This document shows, one piece after another, positions 1,981 through 40,869 of a DNA stretch of 45,849 bases (its first letter is position 1; every line of letters starts with the position of its first letter). Source of the DNA: a virus; IMG/VR virus record IMGVR_UViG_3300009618_000010, positions 1 to 45,849 of that record, one strand, 5' to 3'. The notes below the pieces were generated by a model. It saw only the letters and a program-made list of their open reading frames with translations. It was not told the origin of the DNA and made no database searches. The position numbers were made by a program, and so were the translations under genes.

Positions 1981-4900
1981 TTGCCTGGGAAGAGAGCAAG
2001 CTGGCCCGGCGTAGGAGCTTCGCCGGGGGCCTTGGCAGCCTTTGGAGCTTTGGGGGGAGGCCCTTTAAACAGCCTGGGGTTTATCGTGGTCTGGGGCATG
2101 TGCTGCATTACCTTATACGCCTTGGTGCCACCTTTGGCCGCTATCTCCCGCGATCTAAACCACGGTTTCAAAGCCTGCTCCATCGCCAGGGGCTTGGCGG
2201 GAGCACCGAGGCCGGTTCCCGGAATGACAATAGAATAGCTTGGATGCTCCGGGACACCGTGCTCTTCCGCTGTCCCCAGCGGCTTATTTTTATTGACTTG
2301 TATAATCTGGACGATTTGACCCTGCTGTTGGGCGGCATTCGGCTCATTAAACCTGTCCCGGACTTCCTCATAAGGAGGCACGCCAAACTTTTTGCTGTTG
2401 GTTGCGGAGCCGATATATTTCCAAATCTCAGAACGAGTCCAAAAAGGCAATCCTTGCGCGCCGCCCGTGCCCGCTTCATTTTTTGCCGATGAAAGCACCA
2501 AGTTTTTCAGATCATCAAAATTCTTGACACGAGTGAAATCCATTCCTGGAAGATTCATTTGGAAAGCATTGCCTTGGTCTTTAACTTTGCGCCCGGCTTC
2601 GCGCGCCAGCCTGTTTAAATTGCCGGGCTTGACCGATTTTGCTTTCAAAGCATCTTCCAACTCTTCCAAATAGGCCCGTGCAAAAGAGATCGAGCCTGAG
2701 GACATATCCGGGCTTCCGGCCACGACCGCGATGTAGTCCACATTTTTTAAAGCATTTGTGATGCGGGTCAGGTGATTAGGGGTCAAGGCCCATCCGGCTT
2801 TGCCCTGGGTTTCCGGCATATTAGGATAACCAGGGCCTCCCATCATCGGCACAGCGGTTTCCCTGCCGCTCGCGGTTTTGTAGTTTCCGCCAGAAGCCTG
2901 CTGGTCGGCCATAACAAACAGCATCTTCTTTCCGTTGAGAGCTTCCCACTCTTTTCCGCTCATGGCAGGCGGTGAGAACGTGCCAATGGCAATAGGTTGA
3001 CCTGGCTCCTTATCGGCCAGTGAGACCGGCTTTCCAGAGGCGATGTCGGCTCCGGTCTTCTCCAAGGCAGCGGGCGAGAAAAGTGCCACACCCTGCGAGA
3101 CGCTGGCCTTCATTTCCGGTGTGATTGGAAGCGTATGAATTTGAATTGACCTCATTGGCTTTGAAGGGTCATCATAACCCTCATCTGATGGAATGTTACC
3201 AAGAGTGCCCTCAGTGACGCGCGCCCCGAATTTCTTTCCAAACTTATTGGCGTAGTCCACCATGATTTTGTCGTAGAACCCGGACATACCCTCGCCGCCC
3301 ACCTTCAAATCAACACCACTAAGAGTGTGTAAATCAGTGAGATTTTTATCCGGTTTGCTCGCCAGGAGCTTTTGAGCAACTTCTTTACCTACGTAATTTT
3401 CAAGCTTTTCCGGCGTTACACCGTCAGCTACAGGAATCCAATCCACTACACCTCCTATCTTGTGAGCACTTAAATTTCCAGTAGTCTCATTATATTGCAA
3501 TGCAGTTACATGTTTCTCCAAACTATAGCGGTCAGCCTGCTGTTTTCCAGTTGTCCAACCAATCCAATCCTTGCCTTCCTCGGCTGCCATTTGCACAAGG
3601 CGGCGAAAGACGGTCTCCTGCCAAGTGTGCTTGAATGGAGCTTCGGGGACTTTCAAAGTTTCTTTACTGGCTTTTCTGGCTTCTTCGGCCTGCCTAAACT
3701 CTTCGGTTTGCTGCCGATATTTTACAAAGGCATCGACCAGAGGCTTGACTGCCGGGTCTTTGATCTCGAATTTACCGTCCAAGCCAAACTCAGAGTGTAA
3801 ACCTGTAGGAGTTGCAAACGTAGCTGCCACAGTCTCTTTTCCATCCCGCGCCACGAAGTTTATGGTAGAATACTGGCCTTCTGAGTTGGTGCCGATTTTA
3901 GGTTGAATACCTTCCTTTATGAGATTTTTAATCTCACCATTATAATTTTCCTGTAGGGCAGCAAGTTGGTTTTCCGTAATTCCCTTTTCTTCATTCCCTG
4001 TTAGGTATCCGTATTTCTTACCCTGCTGGTGCCAATCAGATTGTATTTCCTCGGCAAAGAGGCCAGTCTTTCCCGCTGTATCGGTGCGGTCATCCACGCG
4101 CGCATGGGCGATGACACCCGTGCTTTCTTCGCCCCAGTGCTCGTGCTCCAAGTCTTCGGGCCTAGTCACCTGCTCCGGCGCGTGAAACAGAATCTCGCGG
4201 TAATTGGTTTTTTGGCCTTCAAGCACGTATCTTCCAAATGACGTTTCACCCCCATTTTGAGAAGGCTTATAGTATTCAAGACCGCTCTCTTTTGCAAAAT
4301 CTAAAGTCTCAAAACGAGCTTTAGCTCCTGCGCTATACCCTACATAGAGCCTATATTGACTTTTTCCAGTTCCTAAGTTTGTTTCTTTTCTTATGCGGAT
4401 ACCGCCGTCAGCTACTTCTTCTCCCGTCTTTGAATTTACTAAAATCCACTCTGTAGGATTTTCTTCGTCATCAGGATACCACTCTGTATTTTGGTCAGGG
4501 GCAGTTTTAACGGTCTCTTGTGGAGTAAGATCATTCTGCTTGAGATACTCCTGGACTTCGGCTTTGGTGACGCGCTGCTTGCCTTTCAAAAAGTCGTCCA
4601 GGCCGCTCCACTTCAATTCATCGGACTTGACACCATTGCTGGGATTGCGGAGGATTGCGGACAACTGCGCTGCGGGCATCTTTTCGCCGGAGAATTTGGC
4701 GTCCACGACCCGCCCTAATTGACTGTAGAAAGTCGGCTCTTTCTCTTCCTCGGCAGCCGCAGAGAACTGCCCGGCTTGTAGTCCAAGTTTCTTGTCCCAT
4801 TTAGCGTTGACAGCCTCGACCGCAGGCCCGATTTCCGGCTGCAATTTATCGAGCACGGCCTGGGCCTCTGGGCCTAGGGCTTTGATCTTGTCCGCAAACG

Positions 4901-7900
4901 GGGTGCCCTCGTGTCCTGTTTCATAGAAGCTGTGCGGACTCTCCGGCTCAAAGTTACCGGGGCTGGTTTCCTTGAATCCCGCCGCTACGGCCTCCTGGTC
5001 GGCAAAATGGCCGTGGAGCAGCCCAAAGAGCTTGGCGTCAGCGGCAGGAAGATCGACATTAGTGACTGGATTGTGCTCGGTCTCACCCGCGCTGTTTTTA
5101 TAGGTGCCTTTTATGATCTCGCCCGGCTTGACTTTGAAATGATCAAAAAGGGGCTGCATCGCCTTTAGCATGTCCTGTTGATAAGCCAGCTTTGTGTCGT
5201 AGGGTGCCGATTGCAGGCCGGGCAATTTGCCGCTGGCCTTACCGGGGGCCATTTCCATCGGATAGCGGAGAGTTTCCTTGTTTTCGCTTTCGTCGGCTGC
5301 TGGGGAGTAAGTCCCTCCTTCTTTCGGCGGCTTAGTCCAAACGCCTTTCTTATTGACATATCCATACTGGATGGGATAGCCGGAAGGCTTCTCCGGGTGG
5401 TCTTCATCCACATCGACCCAATCGTCCAGGCTCAAGACGCCCTTATTTCGCAGCTTGTCGAATTCAGTAGCACCGGGCATTTTATCCAACTGCTCCGACG
5501 TGTAAATCTTTCCTTTCCACTTGATTGCGGACTGCAAACCAGCCGGAGGAACAGCCTCCTTGACCGGTGCGACTGGGGGCCTATTCGGGTTCTGCTCGTT
5601 GAACCGCTCGGATGTCAGGCCGTAGGTGGTGCCGGGCTTAAAACCAGCGGCGGCAAGGACGGCGCTATTCGGCACGCGGTCGCTCTCGCCCGGCTGATAC
5701 TGCTTGGCTTCCACAGCGCGCGCAAACGCTTTATCCCGGTCGAGAAACTCACCGGGCGTGTTGGTCGTATAACCATCAATCAAGTCGCCGGAATACTTCG
5801 GAGATTTCATCCGGGCCAAGTAGTGAGACGCGCCTTCGTAAATGCGGCCAGTCTTTTCATCCTTTACGGCGGCACTCTTAATTGCGTGCGGGTCATCACT
5901 GGCAGAAAATTTCAGCGGCTCATTTCGTATCTCTTTCCACAGTTCATCCGGGACTTTGTAGCCGAGTTTCGCCAGCGAGTGCGCGTAAGTAGTGGAATTC
6001 GCGGCGGTCGCGCCGGGCAAGTCAACTTTGGGCGTGATTTGCAGCCAAGGCGGCATTCCAGGAAGTGTTTCCTGCACACCATCAAACGATGCTGGATATT
6101 TCTTACCATCCGGGCCGGTCAATTCGATGTTGCGTTTGCCTTCTGAGGCTGGACTGAAATTTGCCTTTACTTTTTCCCAGTTTGCCACTTTCGCTTCCGA
6201 TGGTTCTGGCGTCATGCCTTCTCTCCTGTCTAACCGAAAGCTCCGAAATGTCTTTGTCAACAGTTTATTGAGAATATCCCTCTTAACTGTTCCAAGGCCG
6301 TTTGCGTCACCAGGCAAGCCCGCAGCATGATTGTTTTTCAGTGTGTCAAGATCGGCTTTAGCCTTCGCCATGTCACCACCCCACAAACCAAGGCCACCTT
6401 TAGTCTTCATTTGCGCGAGTAATTGATCTTCCGCTTCTTCACTCTGCATCCGGTCTATGAAATTGCCTTTACTGGTTTTCTCAATTCCCCTCGACCAAGC
6501 GCGTTGGTAAGAAACAGGCACATTACCCAGGTCGCGGGAAGCGCGCTTTGCAAAGCTTAGACGATCAACAGCACTCTTACCCCCCGCTATACCGTGGTTC
6601 CAGAAAGAAATCTTCTCACCGCTGGCGATGGAATCAAAAGTGGTTTTAATAGACTGCTTTGTCCAGGGAGTTATAGCCGGGTCTTCCATCAATCCAGCAG
6701 GCATTTTCGTCACCAGCGTTTTATCTGGAAAATACTTGGCTAATGCGGTTTCTTCGGCGTTTGTTCTGCGCCGCAACTCGCCAGGCGGATAAAACTTGAT
6801 GCTTTCTTTTCCAGTCTGCCTATCAACAACTCGCTCACCCCACGGATTGATTGCTTTTGGCTGCCCGTTTTTATCGGTCACATTATACCAGGGGGCTTTC
6901 GGGCCTCCCATATCGGCGGCTGTCAACTTTACTTCGGGAGCTTCTCCCGGCGCTTTGTTAAACACCATATCCCGTTGCGCTTTAAGCAATCTGTAAGTAA
7001 GCTGCCGTAGATTAGGGTCATTAAAAGAACCTTTGAAGTCGGGAAAGATTGTGCCGTTATCATGGACTTTAGTGAGATCAACTCCCTGGTCACTGAGCCA
7101 GCCTTTAACGCCCGCTAATGCTGTTTGTGTCGCAGATTGCTGGACATCTTTGCCCTGCATGGCTTGCAAAAGGTCTTTGCCATCAAGAGCGTGTGAAGCC
7201 GCCTCAGAAAGCATTTCAGAATATCCCCAATCAGGGTCTATAGCATCCTCTCTTTTTATGTAATTTGCAGCGGCATAGGGGTCGCCGTGAGAAACCCGAT
7301 TTGCATAATCGAGTTTGAAATGGTCAATTGTTTTACCCTCTGGCCCCGCGCTGACGTCTCTCTTTAAAGCCTGGTCAAGTGTGGCTTTAATATCGGGATG
7401 CTGGGCAACTAATTCGTCAAAAATCGGGTGGAATGCTTCGTGAATAAGTGTGCCGCCCGGCGCGCGCTTGGTTGGGTCAATCCATAGTGTCTTATTAGCC
7501 TTGTCATACCAACCTGCCTGGCCTACTGCCTTTCCACCCGGAGCAAATGCGCTTCCCGCATCCTGGTCAGTTGCAAATTTAATTGTGCGGTCGGGAAGAA
7601 CTTTTTTTAAAGTCGCGGCTGTTAGAATATCACTGGCAGGAACAAGGCGTAAAGTGGCCGCACTCCCCCCATTCGCAAAATGATCAGCAACAACTTTTGC
7701 GGCTCCGCCTATATTAGCGTCAAAAATCTTTGCCTGGCCAGCGGACATCATTCCATGCGGAACGCCTAGAATCGCCATTTGTCCCGCGCTCTCGCCTATT
7801 TCCTGCGCGTTTCCCCCGGAAACAACGCCGATGCCCGCGCCTAAAGCCGAGCTTATGGCGACATTTTTAGCAACATTTGCGCCAAGAGTCCCGGAATCAA

Positions 7901-28173: not shown

Positions 28174-29169
<996 letters not shown>

Positions 29170-29173
29170 AAGA

Positions 29174-29452
29174 TTATTTTTCAGTTGAGTCAAGGAACGT
29201 GAGAACTTCCTTCAAGGAGTCCTGACAATCCTGCTTTTCGATCAGTGTTGACATTTTCTTTATTTGACACACAATACCCTGGGACTTTCCAAGATTTTCC
29301 GGGGCCACATATTCGAGCGCTCCCCGCGCTTCCTTTAGCTCTTTTTGCAACCATGCAGCCAGGAATTTTTTGACCCTGCCATCTTGAAACAGTTTCCAGT
29401 CACGCCGGAAATCATACGCCAGATTTTTAGGGTCAACGTCCAGGACATTCAT
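29174..29452 (-). CDS. Small helical protein between portal and scaffold (92 aa)
   Basis: MNVLDVDPKNLAYDFRRDWK, then two helices (KKFLAAWLQKELKEARGALE; IVCQIKKMSTLIEKQDC...LKEVLTFLDST). A TTG codon directly precedes the ATG in frame, so initiation could also be at 29455. It is headed by a TTGACA-18-TAAGCTGGT promoter. Small helical proteins are common at this place in phage head operons; no specific function is known to me. Confidence 0.75.
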   Translation of the reverse strand: MNVLDVDPKNLAYDFRRDWKLFQDGRVKKFLAAWLQKELKEARGALEYVAPENLGKSQGIVCQIKKMSTLIEKQDCQDSLKEVLTFLDSTEK

Positions 29453-29503: not shown

Positions 29504-31768
29504 TTATACGCTCCCCGGTCTGGGCTGCCCCGGAGAGATCGGAGTCAATACCGGCGCGGTCAACGGCCCCAGCGCGGGCAATGTTGGCTTCGGGCCTGGG
29601 TTCTGCGGAATACCAGCCGGAACACCAGGAGGGCCGACAGGAGGTAAACCAGCGGGAGCGCCGTTAGCCGGAGGAACACCAGGAGCGCCAGGAAGAGCAG
29701 GAGCGCCAGGAATTCCAGGAGGCCCGGCAGGAGGCAACGAATTCTTGTCATACAAAAAATTCTCGACATGAAGACCCGCAGCCTTAGCCCCAAGGAATAA
29801 GAGTTTCTTTGGATTGAGATTGCCGGGCTGAGGCGAAAACGCATCGGGGAATCCCTGGGCAGCTTCCAACAGTTTCGAGATCGCCGCGACTTTGCGCCCA
29901 TCCGTGCCGGGCAGTGTGCCGTCGTGCGGCGGAAAATCATACTCGCCCGCGATGGCGTTTTTATCCAGGCTCACGGAAGCCGCGTCCCTCAACTCAGGCG
30001 GCAGGCTCGTCACATCGGAAGGCTTGAACCGAATCATTTGAGCGTCGTCCATGAATTGCTGGAACATGCTGACAATCATTCTTGTTTGCGGCACGAGCGC
30101 CTGGGACGACATCAGGCGGGCAATAGAAGTCAACCGGCCCGCTCCCATTTGCTGTGTCCCGGCAAACTGCGTGGCGCTGGCAGGCTCGCCGCCCGGCATG
30201 ACACCCTGCATTCCCTCATCGGCAGCGGTGACGCTCTGAGAAAACTTGATGAACTGCATTGCTTCCTCAAGAAATTTCTCTGTCAAGTCTTTAATCGGAA
30301 TCTGCTGGAAAATCTCACTGAGCTTTTTCCCTTCTGCTTCCGGCTTGAGCGTAATCAGCAATCCCTCTTTGTCGGGATTCATAAAATCGGTCACATCAAC
30401 ACAACGCGGGTCGTAAACGAAAATGTTCCCAAGCGTGCGGCTCACCGCTTCCTGGTGCCGATTTTTCAAAAAGTCAACGTAATCCTGAATGCCCTTCAAC
30501 ATCTGAATCCAACTCACTGAAAATTGGAAATGGGCATTGGGTCGTCCTTCGGCCACTGAATACGGAAACAGCCCATGCTCGTAAGTGGATTCGTTCATTG
30601 AGAGCAGGACATCGCCGCCAGAAATGAGAATCTGGAAGATAACCGGCTCGTCTTCGGTCGCACCGGGCTGCGTGAAATCCTGGTTTGCGGCGGGATTATT
30701 GTCGCGCGCTTTTGTTCCGGGAGGGCCTCCCGCGATGCCCGGCTCCAAACTATTGCGAGTCGTGTTGATCGGGCCACGTCCAGGACGGGCCACATTGGAC
30801 TCCACGATATTGGGAAAGCCCTGATCGGGCCGGGCCACACTGGCAAGACCGGCAGCGGGATTTTGGTATCCCTGGCCGTCGTCATTATTTAGCTGCGCGC
30901 CGGTCGGACTGGATTTACCGCCGGAAAGCGGGGGAGTCGGAGTTTCATCGCTGTAAATACGATTTTCAGACGGAACCAGACGAACCCATAGCTCCCAGCA
31001 TTCGACGTTTCCCGTGTCATTCTTATCCGCCTGGATGTTGCCGGTTGGCTGCAAGGCGCGCGTGCGCTCGTAAGCCGTGCGGCTCAATCTGATTTCCGTA
31101 GGATTCGGAAGAACACCGGGCAACGAGGGAACCGCCGCATCAGCCTGCGCAATTCCCTTTTTGGCTTTAGCAACCAAATCTTCAACAGCACTCGGCAGAA
31201 CATAAGATGGGTGGTCAATCGGGAGCTTGGCTCGACGGCGAAGCTCCGTGACAGAAATAATAGTCCTGTGACCAGTAAATCGCATGTCTTGAATACGATG
31301 AATTGGAAGAGCAGGGTCAGCAATGAAATCATACGGACTGACAATTTCCATCTTGGCAAAATTGCCGATCACTTTGTTACGCCGCGTCGGGCGCATATAC
31401 GTCCGGGGCTTGCCGCTTTCATCCAAATCATTCGGGTCTTCAACCATTATTGGCACCATTTCCGGTCGGAAGATCGGCGACCATGAATTGTAAAAAATCC
31501 CGCGATTGATGGCGAGCGCGTCCTGCACCCAAAGATACCCCAGCAAATAAGTCGGCTGTTGCTCCGCATTCCAGCGCAAAAGATTATTGACAAGCTCCGC
31601 AGGCACGTCATCCTCCGGGCGGCGTCCCTCGACCTTCCACGGCGTTTCCTGGCCAAAAAGCACCTGGGCGATATACGTGGTCATGGTCGTGATCTGAGTC
31701 GCGGTCATCGGAAGGATATACCGCTTCGGGTGCCCCCGCTCCAAATTCTCCGTGTCTTTTTTACTCAA
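29504..31768 (-). CDS. Portal protein (unusual 5' end)
   Basis: 754 aa from TTG 31768. HPKRYILPMTATQITTMTTY, then IAQVLFGQETPWKVEGRRPED and LLGYLWVQDALAINRGIFYNSW, is the usual portal clip and wing region; VVSPYDF-type (MEIVSPYDFIADPALPIHRI), then HFQFSVSWIQMLKGIQDYVD and NRHQEAVSRTLGNIFVYD follow, and the C-terminus is a Pro/Gly-rich tail. It forms the dodecameric DNA entry ring. The frame is open for 29 more codons upstream (to a TGA at 31856-31858) and these codons read like portal sequence (RYLKIFSNDFDLCYDILSCY), yet they contain no ATG, GTG or TTG, and the TTG itself lacks a Shine-Dalgarno site. A lost, spliced or displaced N-terminus is therefore likely. Confidence 0.85.
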   Translation of the reverse strand: MSKKDTENLERGHPKRYILPMTATQITTMTTYIAQVLFGQETPWKVEGRRPEDDVPAELVNNLLRWNAEQQPTYLLGYLWVQDALAINRGIFYNSWSPIFRPEMVPIMVEDPNDLDESGKPRTYMRPTRRNKVIGNFAKMEIVSPYDFIADPALPIHRIQDMRFTGHRTIISVTELRRRAKLPIDHPSYVLPSAVEDLVAKAKKGIAQADAAVPSLPGVLPNPTEIRLSRTAYERTRALQPTGNIQADKNDTGNVECWELWVRLVPSENRIYSDETPTPPLSGGKSSPTGAQLNNDDGQGYQNPAAGLASVARPDQGFPNIVESNVARPGRGPINTTRNSLEPGIAGGPPGTKARDNNPAANQDFTQPGATEDEPVIFQILISGGDVLLSMNESTYEHGLFPYSVAEGRPNAHFQFSVSWIQMLKGIQDYVDFLKNRHQEAVSRTLGNIFVYDPRCVDVTDFMNPDKEGLLITLKPEAEGKKLSEIFQQIPIKDLTEKFLEEAMQFIKFSQSVTAADEGMQGVMPGGEPASATQFAGTQQMGAGRLTSIARLMSSQALVPQTRMIVSMFQQFMDDAQMIRFKPSDVTSLPPELRDAASVSLDKNAIAGEYDFPPHDGTLPGTDGRKVAAISKLLEAAQGFPDAFSPQPGNLNPKKLLFLGAKAAGLHVENFLYDKNSLPPAGPPGIPGAPALPGAPGVPPANGAPAGLPPVGPPGVPAGIPQNPGPKPTLPALGPLTAPVLTPISPGQPRPGSV

Positions 31769-31827
31769 CGAGGAGTAGCACGAGAGAATATCGTAGCAAA
31801 GATCAAAGTCGTTGCTGAAAATTTTTA

Positions 31828-31973
31828 GGTAGCGGGTAAGCCCAGTGATGTTAAGTCACCAGGCTCCCGCTACCAATACGCTAGGGCATCGCGACCAATT
31901 CTTAGACTTTAAGTAGCCATACCGGGAATGTGTTCAATTACGAACTATTTCCCGGCATGGCTACAGATAGTCT
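31828..31973 (-). other. Two long hairpins between HNH gene and portal
   Basis: Hairpin A (31904-31973): 15-bp stem GTAGCCAT-CCGGGAA with TTCCCGG-ATGGCTAC around a GTTC/GAAC inner stem, with an extra outer AGACT/AGTCT pair. Hairpin B (31828-31874): 9-bp GGTAGCGGG/CCCGCTACC extended by GCC/GGC and GTGA/TCAC. Neither has a T-tract, so they are unlike terminators. Hairpin B overlaps the upstream open part of the portal frame. Confidence 0.7.
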
Positions 31974-32016
31974 TTGGCCAACTTCACCATCCGCGCTCTC
32001 AAATCTTTATCTGTAT

Positions 32017-32646
32017 CTAACCTGCGGGCGAGTAATCTGTCCATAGACGTTCACCTTTCTTCAAATTCTCCGTTGCCCAAAGCGGCTGGAGATTGGTGTA
32101 TGAAAAACAGGCTTTCTGTTGCTTTGGGTCTGTCAGGTCGAACTCTTTAATTGGCTTTACATGGTCAATGTGAAAAGACCCTGGAATAGCCCATGACATA
32201 CCTGGCCTGAATTTTGACTCTAAATGTTGTCGAAGAAAATCAATTGAGCACCCGATAAGCTCTTGTGTTTTAAACGCTTTTCTACCGTCCCGTTCGCGTA
32301 AAGCAGAGCGAATTCGGTTCCGCAGCCGATTGCCGATTTGACAAAGTAAGGTCTTCTTGTAATTCTTCCGCTGCGCTATGCCTTTACTGCTTTTTGCATA
32401 TTTACGACATGCAAGTCTTGATGCTTCTGGGCTGTTCTGACGCGCTTGCCTAGCTTTTTTAAGAATAGCTTCCCTATGTCGAAGATAAAACCGCTTTCTT
32501 TTTGCGCGGCATCGCTCAGGGTTCTTCTTTTCCCACCTTCGGTTCTGCGCAGAAATTCTATCTTTGTTTTTCAAGTAACGTAAATGATTTCTTTCCCGCT
32601 TTCTTGCAGAAATGGCAACTGGGTCGTGATACTCTTGAAGAGTCAT
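32017..32646 (-). CDS. HNH homing-type endonuclease (209 aa)
   Basis: A basic N-terminus rich in Arg/Lys (SARKRERNHLRYLKNKDRIS...RCRAKRKRFYLRHREAILKK) is followed by the HNH region: IGCSIDFLRQHLESKF, GSFHIDHVKPIKEFDL (first His-Asp-His part) and SYTNLQPLWATENLKKG (Asn and final residues). This is the layout of small free-standing or intron-encoded phage homing endonucleases, which nick or cut DNA at an allele lacking the insertion. The ATG follows the stop of the 128-aa gene directly (TAAATG). The first 11 residues (MTLQEYHDPVA) are not typical of the family and could be left over from a displaced neighbour such as the portal. Confidence 0.9.
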   Translation of the reverse strand: MTLQEYHDPVAISARKRERNHLRYLKNKDRISAQNRRWEKKNPERCRAKRKRFYLRHREAILKKARQARQNSPEASRLACRKYAKSSKGIAQRKNYKKTLLCQIGNRLRNRIRSALRERDGRKAFKTQELIGCSIDFLRQHLESKFRPGMSWAIPGSFHIDHVKPIKEFDLTDPKQQKACFSYTNLQPLWATENLKKGERLWTDYSPAG

Positions 32647-33033
32647 TTAAGCTTTCGCTCCGGGAGCGATATTGGGCGGCTGATGGGGATTCAGTGGGTG
32701 CTTCAGCGGTGGAAGAACTTTCACGATTGGGCCAAGTGTCCCATCAGGCAATTTGATATGCAAAAGAATCGACCCATCAAGCTGAGTGACGGCCTGATAT
32801 TGAGGCGGCGGAGCTTGCGGAGCAGCCCCCGGAGGCCCTCCGGCCTGCCGCAGAATAGCACCAAGCGCAGCCGGAGGCGGAGCAGCCGGGCCATGAATAA
32901 CCGGAGTATTCGGCAGCGGCGCGGGTGCCGGTGTGGCCCCTGGGACTCCTGATGGGATAGTCCCCGGCGTGGCCGGGGGAAGCATGGCGCTCACTGGCGC
33001 GGGGCCGATATTCGGGCCAACATAATTCAACAT
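32647..33033 (-). CDS. Pro/Ala-rich small protein upstream of the portal (128 aa)
   Basis: A strong AAGGAG stands ten bases before ATG 33033. Residues 15-80 are Pro/Ala/Gly-rich linkers (PPATPGTIPSGVPGATPAPA); the C-terminal part YQAVTQLDGSILLHIKLPDG is ordered, followed by a Pro-rich end. No family recognised. It lies in the head operon between the tRNA and the HNH gene. Confidence 0.7.
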   Translation of the reverse strand: MLNYVGPNIGPAPVSAMLPPATPGTIPSGVPGATPAPAPLPNTPVIHGPAAPPPAALGAILRQAGGPPGAAPQAPPPQYQAVTQLDGSILLHIKLPDGTLGPIVKVLPPLKHPLNPHQPPNIAPGAKA

Positions 33034-33050
33034 AACTTTTACTCCTTAAC

Positions 33051-33126
33051 TGGTAGCGGGGGCGGGACTTGCACCCGCGACCTCCACGTTATGAGCGTGA
33101 CGAGCTACTCACTGCTCCACCCCGCA
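33051..33126 (-). tRNA. tRNA-Met (CAT), initiator-like
   Basis: 76 nt with encoded CCA (33053-33051). Acceptor 7 bp with a mismatched first pair (T1-T72); D-stem GAGC/GCTC; anticodon stem TCACG/CGTGG with loop CTCATAA (CAT at 33093-33091); perfect T-stem GCGGG/CCCGC with loop TGCAAGT. The mismatched 1-72 pair and purine-pyrimidine pair A11-T24 are features of bacterial initiator tRNAs, and the body is close to fMet tRNA. The three G-C pairs of the initiator anticodon stem are only partly present, and the usual GG of the D-loop is absent. It lies between two head genes. Confidence 0.85.
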
Positions 33127-33128
33127 AA

Positions 33129-33551
33129 TTATTCAGCCAAATCCTTGGCACTAATCGGCGGAGCTTCCTTTTTGGATTTCTTCCGCTTATAGCCCAGGGC
33201 CTTGGTCTCTTCCTCGTCCGACTCTTCCTCACCCTCACCAGAACCGGAACCACTGCCGGAGCTTTCTCCGTAGGTCTCGCGGCCCTCTTCGTGCTCTGGC
33301 GCGATGTCGTCAAGCTCGATCACATCAAACTGGACACTTTTTCCAAAACTATCATCAGTAAGGCCCGTGACACAAATGCGAACCGTGGCAGCAAACTCTT
33401 CGCCCACCTTAGCCTCAGTTTCGTCCAAAAACTTTGCGGCGTGCTCATCCCTCAAGGAAAAGCCAGGATAAGTGACTTTTGGCTCCTTCTCGTTGGATTT
33501 CTCCGGGGTCGCCAGGGAGCCGAGCGACTCGTGTTTCTTACCTAGTTCCAT
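33129..33551 (-). CDS. Acidic small phage protein (140 aa)
   Basis: N-terminal half (YPGFSLRDEHAAKFLDETEA, then VGEEFAATVRICVTGLTDDS and GKSVQFDVIELDDI) is a beta-rich domain common in uncharacterised phage head-module proteins. The C-terminal third is a Glu/Ser/Gly-rich tail (ESSGSGSGSGEGEEESDEEE) ending in a basic patch. The ATG stands eight bases after the -10 box, with no room for a ribosome-binding site. Function unknown. Confidence 0.8.
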   Translation of the reverse strand: MELGKKHESLGSLATPEKSNEKEPKVTYPGFSLRDEHAAKFLDETEAKVGEEFAATVRICVTGLTDDSFGKSVQFDVIELDDIAPEHEEGRETYGESSGSGSGSGEGEEESDEEETKALGYKRKKSKKEAPPISAKDLAE

Positions 33552-39722: not shown

Positions 39723-39730
39723 ATGGAACC

Positions 39731-39759
39731 AGTTTACGATTTCTCTAATCTTTTGTCAA
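39731..39759 (-). promoter_or_regulatory. Leaderless-type promoter of the sugar-gene unit
   Basis: On the minus strand: TTGACA (39759-39754), 17-bp spacer, TAAACT (39736-39731), GGTTCCAT, ATG 39722. Full -35 match and TAAACTGGT. Confidence 0.65.
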
Positions 39760-39853
39760 GACCGTAAATTGTGGATTACAGAAAAGCCAGCTAAGCGCCG
39801 CGTGAAAATCACGCAAAATGACAGAAAACCTGTCAATACTAGGCGGGAAAAAG

Positions 39854-39938
39854 GGGGAAGAGGTATATGATTTATTATTACTTAATTAACTTTATAAAGT
39901 AAAATAAGTAAGGAGTGATTTATATAAAGCTCTTCCCC
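39854..39938. other. AT-rich nested palindrome
   Basis: GGGGAAGAG (39854-39862) and CTCTTCCCC (39930-39938) form outer arms around TATAT/ATATA, TTACTTA/TAAGTAA and a central ACTTTATAAAGT. An extended hairpin of about 85 nt or a cruciform could form. It lies between the two operators. Confidence 0.65.
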
Positions 39939-39944
39939 TAGTTT

Positions 39945-39967
39945 CCCGGCGAAGCTCCGGGCGTTTT
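39945..39967 (+). terminator. Small intrinsic terminator facing right
   Basis: CCCGG-CGAAGCT-CCGGG followed by CGTTTTT. The T-tract fits only plus-strand transcription, yet no plus-strand gene precedes it. It may end a short transcript that includes the AT-rich palindrome. Confidence 0.5.
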
Positions 39968-40183
39968 TGCATAAAACGATCTGTTTGCGTGAAAATCACG
40001 CGAATAAGCTCACCTGGGGCCTACCCCGCCTAAAAATTGAACCGGGGGCCAGGGGTGGGGTTATGGGAACCCATTTCTGAATTTCTGAGCCGGGGGTGGG
40101 GTGGCTGTCTTTGTGGGCGTGTGACTCCCCGCCAGATTTACCACCCCCGGATGGAACCAAACAGCCCAAAGTCGAGATAGCCG

Positions 40184-40293
40184 TTGATTATCAAGCACTT
40201 ACGATGACGATCGCCCTCGACCGCGCGAGACTGGTCTCCCTCGGCCCTCCGGCGCTCCGCCAAGACCTTGCCTCGTAAGTGCTTGATAGTCAA
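40184..40293. repeat. 21-bp inverted repeat flanking 68 bp
   Basis: TTGATTATCAAGCACTTACGA (40184-40204) faces TCGTAAGTGCTTGATAGTCA(A) (40273-40293), one mismatch in 21. The GC-rich centre has no gene. It resembles a small non-autonomous element or a paired recombination site. Confidence 0.7.
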
Positions 40294-40366
40294 TGCTATT
40301 CGCACAATGTAAGTTGTATTCCGTTGGAGCTAAAGCCCTCAGCATCAGGCATTTATGACTTTTCGG

Positions 40367-40452
40367 TGACCTGGCGGAGCGGCGAGCCGGGGGCCAGTTG
40401 ATGGGAATGCGAGTGCCCCAAAACGGCCTTTTCGCGGTGCTCCGCCAGGTCA
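40367..40452. repeat. 14-bp inverted repeat flanking 58 bp
   Basis: TGACCTGGCGGAGC (40367-40380) and GCTCCGCCAGGTCA (40439-40452) are perfect inverse copies. A partial match (GCTCCGCCAAGACC) also lies near 40254 inside the preceding element. The stretch 40294-40366 between the two elements holds nothing I recognise. Confidence 0.7.
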
Positions 40453-40489
40453 TCGGTCGATTAGGCTTAAAAATATTTCGTTATATTAC

Positions 40490-40599
40490 GAGCTATACAG
40501 CATATAGATATGCTCTATACAGCATACAGATATGAGCTATACAGCATACAGATATGAGCTATACAGCATATAGATACGAACTATACAGCATATGGCATA
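40490..40599. repeat. 22-bp tandem repeat, five copies
   Basis: Unit GAGCTATACAGCATAYAGATAT, copies at 40490, 40512, 40534, 40556 and 40578; the last is diverged at its end. AT-rich. The first junction contains the palindrome GCATATAGATATGC. The array has the form of iterons. Confidence 0.85.
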
Positions 40600-40626
40600 G
40601 ATAGTTCCACTGGGTAGAACTATCTA
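40598..40626. other. Perfect 10-bp hairpin after the 22-bp array
   Basis: TAGATAGTTC (40598-40607), loop CACTGGGTA, GAACTATCTA (40617-40626). No T-tract. It joins the 22-bp array to the 10-bp array. Confidence 0.7.
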
Positions 40627-40650
40627 CGCTATTGTGATAAGCTGACGATT

Positions 40651-40706
40651 AGGCATGATTCGGCATGATTCGGCATGATTCGGCATGATTCGGCATGATT
40701 CGGCAT
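40651..40706. repeat. 10-bp tandem repeat, about 5.5 copies
   Basis: CGGCATGATT repeated head to tail (first copy AGGCATGATT, last copy truncated to CGGCAT), ending five bases before the stop codon of the 52-aa gene. A half-copy (GACGATT) precedes it. Confidence 0.85.
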
Positions 40707-40710
40707 CGGC

Positions 40711-40869
40711 TTACCGTAAGAGGGCCTCGCGGACTTGACGCTTCGCCTCGGCCCGCTGCTGCACGCGCGCGCGGTTCTTAATCTCTTCCGTCCCAGTCCA
40801 GTGTGTCATGTTGGAATGACCACGCTTGCCGCCCTGGCCTCCCCTGATCTTTTTTAGCTTGGCGCTCAT
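40711..40869 (-). CDS. Small basic conserved protein after the small terminase (52 aa)
   Basis: MSAKLKKIRGGQGGKRGHSN followed by MTHWTGTEEIKNRARVQQRA and a charged end. The 'RGHSNMTHWTGTEEIK' pattern occurs in short uncharacterised phage and bacterial proteins. Its ATG overlaps the TGA of the preceding gene (ATGA), so translation is coupled. The high content of Lys and Arg suggests nucleic-acid binding. Confidence 0.75.
   Translation of the reverse strand: MSAKLKKIRGGQGGKRGHSNMTHWTGTEEIKNRARVQQRAEAKRQVREALLR

Follow-up and report, generated by a model that had tools for sequence, protein, structure and literature searches.

Analysis of the window, the whole 45,849-nt stretch of viral DNA, revealed that its portal gene is interrupted twice near the 5' end by short hairpin-forming inserts. 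At the sequence level this interruption is secure. Ribosomes may produce the full-length portal from unspliced mRNA through two programmed bypasses in succession, each like that of T4 gene 60. From the comparisons described below we give this reading somewhat less than an even chance, and we hold it as the best explanation because the layout is that of T4 gene 60, here twice in one gene. On the minus strand the order is proline-rich gene, HNH gene, portal gene, with the following features:

33033-32647, minus strand: small proline-rich gene, 5' of the HNH gene.
32017-32646, minus strand: HNH endonuclease gene, 209 aa (ORF list; phrog_1035, 1.1e-6; homologues; alignment).
31964-32044, minus strand: portal exon 1, ATG plus 26 codons, MDRLLARRLDTDKDLRARMVKLAKDYL, recognised by homology to the N-terminus of relatives.
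31904-31973, minus strand: hairpin 1 including its outer helix; the stem, 16 bp, starts at the G of CTG (31964); inner stem 31964-31913 (RNA fold).
31903-31963, minus strand: insert 1, 61 nt, consisting of a 58-nt gap plus the putative landing codon CTA 31905-31903; absent from relatives.
31873-31902, minus strand: portal exon 2, 10 codons, RIGRDALAYW, with all family-invariant residues kept.
31828-31874, minus strand: hairpin 2, stem from the GG of TGG with the UAG enclosed, then UAAAAAUUUUC (RNA fold).
31817-31872, minus strand: insert 2, 56 nt, after which coding restarts at AGC 31816; absent from relatives.
29504-31816, minus strand: portal exon 3, from SNDFDLCYDIL to the stop; SU10-type portal protein (PF23899, 1.4e-14; phrog_156, 2.9e-13).

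Comparison with relatives located the true portal start at ATG 32044, within the 3' end of the HNH gene, and a check of the start context found the Shine-Dalgarno-like sequence AAAGGTGA upstream of it. The preliminary description had overlooked this ATG and had regarded the portal as lacking a usable start; as the ATG is usable, neither a rare start codon nor re-initiation, both of which had been proposed, is necessary to explain the portal N-terminus. We confirmed that TTG 31768 is the first ATG, GTG or TTG of the long portal frame, which is open above it without such a start. The first 37 portal codons are all present, but split in two by the two inserts. The third piece opens with SNDFDLCYDILSCYS from 31816 and runs unbroken for 770 codons; the neighbouring head genes are likewise intact. 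The portal 5' end had been thought to be displaced by an endonuclease insertion: it is indeed disrupted next to the HNH gene, but it is still there, as two pieces. Beyond the HNH gene on its 5' side, the proline-rich gene is separated from a 140-aa ORF by a tRNA-Met (CAT) gene at 33051-33126. A clear Shine-Dalgarno sequence is absent from many minus-strand genes of the window, the terminase gene (start 35182) included, which may inform on the host.

Insert 1 follows CTG/Leu27 and insert 2 follows TGG/Trp37, and the first codon of each is an in-frame TAG (at 31963 and 31872, respectively). Both contain stop codons in all three frames, so simple readthrough or a single frameshift was ruled out as the way in which the portal is decoded. 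Together the inserts comprise 117 nt, and the original reading frame is therefore regained past both. The earlier view that ordinary expression cannot yield an intact portal holds; to obtain a whole portal, ribosomes must hop over both gaps or the RNA must somehow be trimmed. The preliminary description had missed that there are two separate inserts flanking a conserved 10-codon exon, and with them the likeness to T4 gene 60 bypassing beside an HNH gene.

When folded as RNA, hairpin 1 (70 nt, 31973-31904, outer helix AGACU/AGUCU) reached -41.1 kcal/mol with z about -10.3, and hairpin 2 (47 nt, 31874-31828) -32.7 kcal/mol with z -5.0. For both hairpins jointly z was -10.4, and 0 of 200 shuffles was equally stable. 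The 47- and 70-nt hairpins noted earlier are thus real, but they lie within the portal coding region rather than directly upstream of the gene. Each stem begins inside the preceding codon and pairs the UAG. Both stems, of 16 bp (hairpin 1) and about 19 bp (hairpin 2), share the closing GUAGC/GCUAC and lead into an unpaired A/U-rich tail, and such spacers stand before both resume codons. Of the codon pairs at the gap borders, that of site 1 (CUG/CUA) is synonymous but not identical, and that of site 2 (UGG/UUC) does not match.

Relatives were taken as IMG/VR portal proteins 65-75% identical to the window portal. They start, for example, with MDRLVARRLDTDKDYRSRLVKLAKDYLKIGRDALAYWSSDFDLAYDLLSCYS, and those without interruption run gaplessly through both sites (KDYL-KIGRDALAYW-SSDFD); in one of them (L028) site 2 reads TAC TGG AGC AAC GAC, with no insert. 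Exon 1 is homologous to the N-terminus of every uninterrupted relative, and exons 1 and 2 keep all residues that are invariant among relatives. For the two exons together pN was 0.152 compared to 0.150 in uninterrupted relatives (pS about 0.8-0.9), and for exon 2 alone 0.107 compared to 0.122. As the constraint on exons 1 and 2 matches that in uninterrupted relatives and the invariant residues are kept, these values argue that the three portal pieces are still selected as one protein; they are not proof, since the exons may have had too little time to diverge after the insertion. The predicted structure of one relative's portal had a mean pLDDT of 33 and was therefore not used.

Constraint on the exons also bears on the idea that translation begins at an internal start (such as TTG 31768 or ATG 31708) and yields a shortened portal, the N-terminal ~53-73 residues being dispensable. 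Such a product would be encoded by the long open frame after TTG 31768, and a poor start is conceivable as several genes of the phage have a weak Shine-Dalgarno sequence or none. However, no Shine-Dalgarno-like sequence precedes any of the internal starts, and many family-invariant residues would be lost. Nothing would then keep exon 2 and the beginning of exon 3 from drifting, yet both are conserved; codons 38-73 are only slightly more divergent (pN 0.235 vs. 0.182), and Ala44, invariant in relatives and located just downstream of exon 2, is Cys in the window portal. We consider a shortened portal rather unlikely. A single in-frame hop that starts at CTG 31966, covers 138 nt and lands on CTA 31828, skipping both hairpins and exon 2, would give KDYL-KIFSNDFD; the frame fits and the two preceding codons are also synonymous (UAU CUG to UAC CUA). 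This hop would nevertheless delete the invariant GRDALAYW block, leave the intact exon 2 unexplained and require landing at the base of hairpin 2. It would also reach far beyond the distance that T4 ribosomes slide efficiently (PMC11194080), and appears very improbable.

The inserts might instead be mini-introns, with precise excision of the hairpins from the mRNA (by self-splicing, or by a nuclease and a ligase) joining the exons before translation. Their exact removal restores the frame at both sites, and in the predicted fold the inserts pair their own ends together. As excision requires no codon match, it fits site 2 better than bypassing does. Rfam covariance searches of the whole window, and at a relaxed threshold (E<=5) of 31700-33150, returned tRNA-Met but no group I, group II or other intron; weak matches to miRNA precursors were just long hairpins. 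The group I splicing suggested earlier found nothing relevant in Rfam at either gathering or relaxed thresholds, the inserts being 56 and 61 nt, and we know of no self-splicing intron as short as 56-61 nt. The geometry of archaeal bulge-helix-bulge introns (two 3-nt bulges, 4-bp helix) was not found either, as the predicted boundaries lie outside bulges, in helices or in the unpaired tail. A GT-AG reading of the inserts was dropped because it would destroy the invariant Trp37/Ser38, and no RNA ligase was recognised among the scanned window proteins. Excision before translation is in our opinion quite improbable. We are, if anything, a shade more doubtful of its specific form, in which 56-61 nt hairpin mini-introns with no known ribozyme core and no codon matching would be precisely excised by a novel activity.

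Both inserts were also present in two other IMG/VR contigs, L002 and L007, and the HNH gene was found in all three insert-bearing contigs. While L002 is identical to the window at the inserts, 6 SNPs over 4352 nt separate L007 from it. Three of the six are located within the inserts (114 nt; binomial p 3e-4) and none within the portal coding pieces. None of the three insert SNPs breaks a base pair: one changes G.U to A-U, another extends stem 2 and the third is situated in an internal loop. Hairpin 2 of L007 folded at -35.9 kcal/mol (z -6.2). These contigs matter for the possibility that a recent insertion broke the portal gene and left a dead or dying allele, the sampled genomes being defective or decaying proviruses. 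The insertion could be recent, since all contigs that carry it are closely related (99.9-100% identical). Against this, the same allele was assembled in two other records with SNPs between them, these SNPs cluster in the inserts and leave the portal coding sequence untouched, and both the 770 codons of exon 3 and the adjoining head genes are intact. We regard a dead allele as unlikely, though not negligibly so.

Further copies were sought with the DNA patterns KLAKDYL-TAG and DALAYW-TAG, which matched only the known contigs. With a gapped pattern built on the two ends of insert 1, 28 stretches were matched, a strong hairpin being present only in the known one. The search for other copies in the phage collection gave no similarity, and no portal relatives were found in the genome collection. 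Elsewhere, the repeat-rich segment 28969-29034 (in the ORF 28174-29193) differs between L002 and the window in the number of repeat units, a copy-number change between near-identical phages. About 1 kb at 39730-40720 holds no clear gene. It contains several long inverted repeats (e.g., 40184-40204/40273-40293 and 40364-40380/40439-40455) and the short tandem repeats GCCGAATCAT and GCTGTATAGCTCATATCT, and is possibly an origin or regulatory region.

The HNH gene begins with an ATG immediately after the TAA of the gene before it, and at its 3' end it overlaps with the portal ATG. In the alignment its product is endonuclease VII-like with an intact DH/N motif. It belongs to a family of free-standing endonuclease VII-like proteins that is widespread in phages, with homologues in 113 phage records. 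The first residues, described before as atypical of HNH proteins, are no anomaly, as the N-terminal part varies across the family. The gene is more A/T-rich than the phage (G+C 44% vs. 53%). Two near-identical relatives, L004 and L005, retain, as a remnant, 25 residues of the HNH 3' end immediately 5' of the portal ATG (60% over 25 aa, E 5e-5, BLAST) and no inserts; a similar-looking stretch was seen by eye in L006, which was not among the BLAST matches. On the evidence of these sequences, an endonuclease gene appears to have occupied the portal 5' site in related phages, and gene and inserts may be separable. In L004 the remnant (4855-4901) supplies sequence including a GGGAG ribosome-binding site before the intact portal ATG and looks like a leftover of endonuclease gene loss. 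Related HNH genes from 80 IMG/VR loci and 9 phage records were surveyed for strong hairpins, nearly all of these loci and records being scanned within 1 kb; the six high-scoring loci were read and none contained an interrupted gene. At L106:1160-1300 and L119:2800-2950, paired long hairpins built from the repeated words GTGTGGAA or CCTCACCT lie directly 3' of related HNH genes, apparently between genes.

The simplest model is that the phage endonuclease's target region in the portal gene was disrupted by the inserts and that ribosomes bypass both; the two hairpin inserts would have been acquired where the HNH homing endonuclease gene also settled. At site 1 a ribosome at Leu27 (CUG) would meet the hairpin-held UAG, release, slide 58 nt and re-pair at CUA, so that decoding restarts at AGA. 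The same would happen at site 2 from Trp37 (UGG) across insert 2, with a restart at AGC. The resulting portal would have 27 + 10 + 770 = 807 aa and would give peptides such as DYLRIGR or DALAYWSNDFDLCYDILSCYSSLSK, which a shortened portal would not. Several features point to bypassing: uninterrupted relatives encode the pieces as one sequence, each insert opens with UAG and has a stop-enclosing hairpin, and the HNH gene lies directly 5'. The allele recurs in two other contigs, with insert SNPs that preserve pairing. The codon pair at site 1 is synonymous, and the gaps of 56-61 nt are at or just past the range in which the processivity of T4 sliding is constant (<=56 nt; PMC11194080). Other features speak against it. 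The landing codon at site 2 is mismatched (UGG vs. UUC). Perfect matching of codons is not universal, as mitochondrial byps show (PMC5009743). The stems are far longer than that of T4, exon 1 reads like any portal N-terminus and gives no hint that a nascent-peptide signal has evolved in it, the first stop comes after only 27 residues, and two serial hops would multiply losses. Three things we infer: the joining of the pieces, its occurrence during translation, and a protective role of the inserts against the adjacent endonuclease.

For comparison we used the published layout of the T4 gene 60 bypass (PMC3014915, PMC5009743, PMC2988022, PMC11194080) and the T4 record, from which the take-off stem UGGAUAGCC/GGCUAUCUA was read and folded. 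In both phages the coding gap lies near the 5' end of a gene with uninterrupted homologues in relatives. UAG directly follows the take-off codon, a hairpin that starts within that codon encloses the stop, an A/U-rich spacer follows and coding resumes in another frame, with an HNH homing endonuclease gene 5' (mobA in T4). T4 has one 50-nt gap in a topoisomerase gene, whereas the window has two inserts of 56 and 61 nt in a portal gene, with longer stems. In contrast to T4, the landing codon in the window is a synonym of the take-off codon at site 1 and does not match it at site 2, and its portal has no evident nascent-peptide signal. The mobA gene is a pseudogene in the T4 record, while the window HNH gene is intact. 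Bonocora et al. in 2011 reportedly treated the 50-nt T4 gap and the neighbouring endonuclease as one mobile cassette. The gap has also been described as protection against cleavage (PMC5009743).

Other systems share parts of this arrangement. The byps of Magnusiomyces capitatus are also several short inserts in essential genes that are translated around without removal; they number 81 in a mitochondrial genome with relaxed decoding, compared to two in one phage gene here, and each window insert has an immediate stop codon and a strong hairpin. In mycobacteriophage Corndog, as in the window, an HNH insertion lies directly upstream of an essential structural gene, the tape measure gene, which is then without a canonical start; RT-PCR showed no splicing, and bypass or an ACG start was proposed (PMC4351075). 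The Corndog gene has no ATG and no hairpin inserts are described in its coding region, whereas the window portal has ATG 32044 and two interruptions. Phage group I introns with HNH endonucleases likewise place an HNH gene next to an interrupted essential gene. The window, however, has no intron core or Rfam match, its inserts are far too small and its HNH gene lies outside them.

In the literature searched, T4 gene 60 is the sole experimentally established long translational bypass of a phage, Hau3 and Corndog being proposals. If bypassing holds, the window portal would be a second, unrelated phage gene with the T4 layout, doubled within 150 nt of one essential gene beside an HNH gene, and would show that endonuclease-linked bypass elements arise repeatedly. 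It would then also test which of the T4 signals (matched codons, nascent peptide, short stem) are really needed. If bypassing does not hold, some novel rescue of a doubly broken essential gene may exist.
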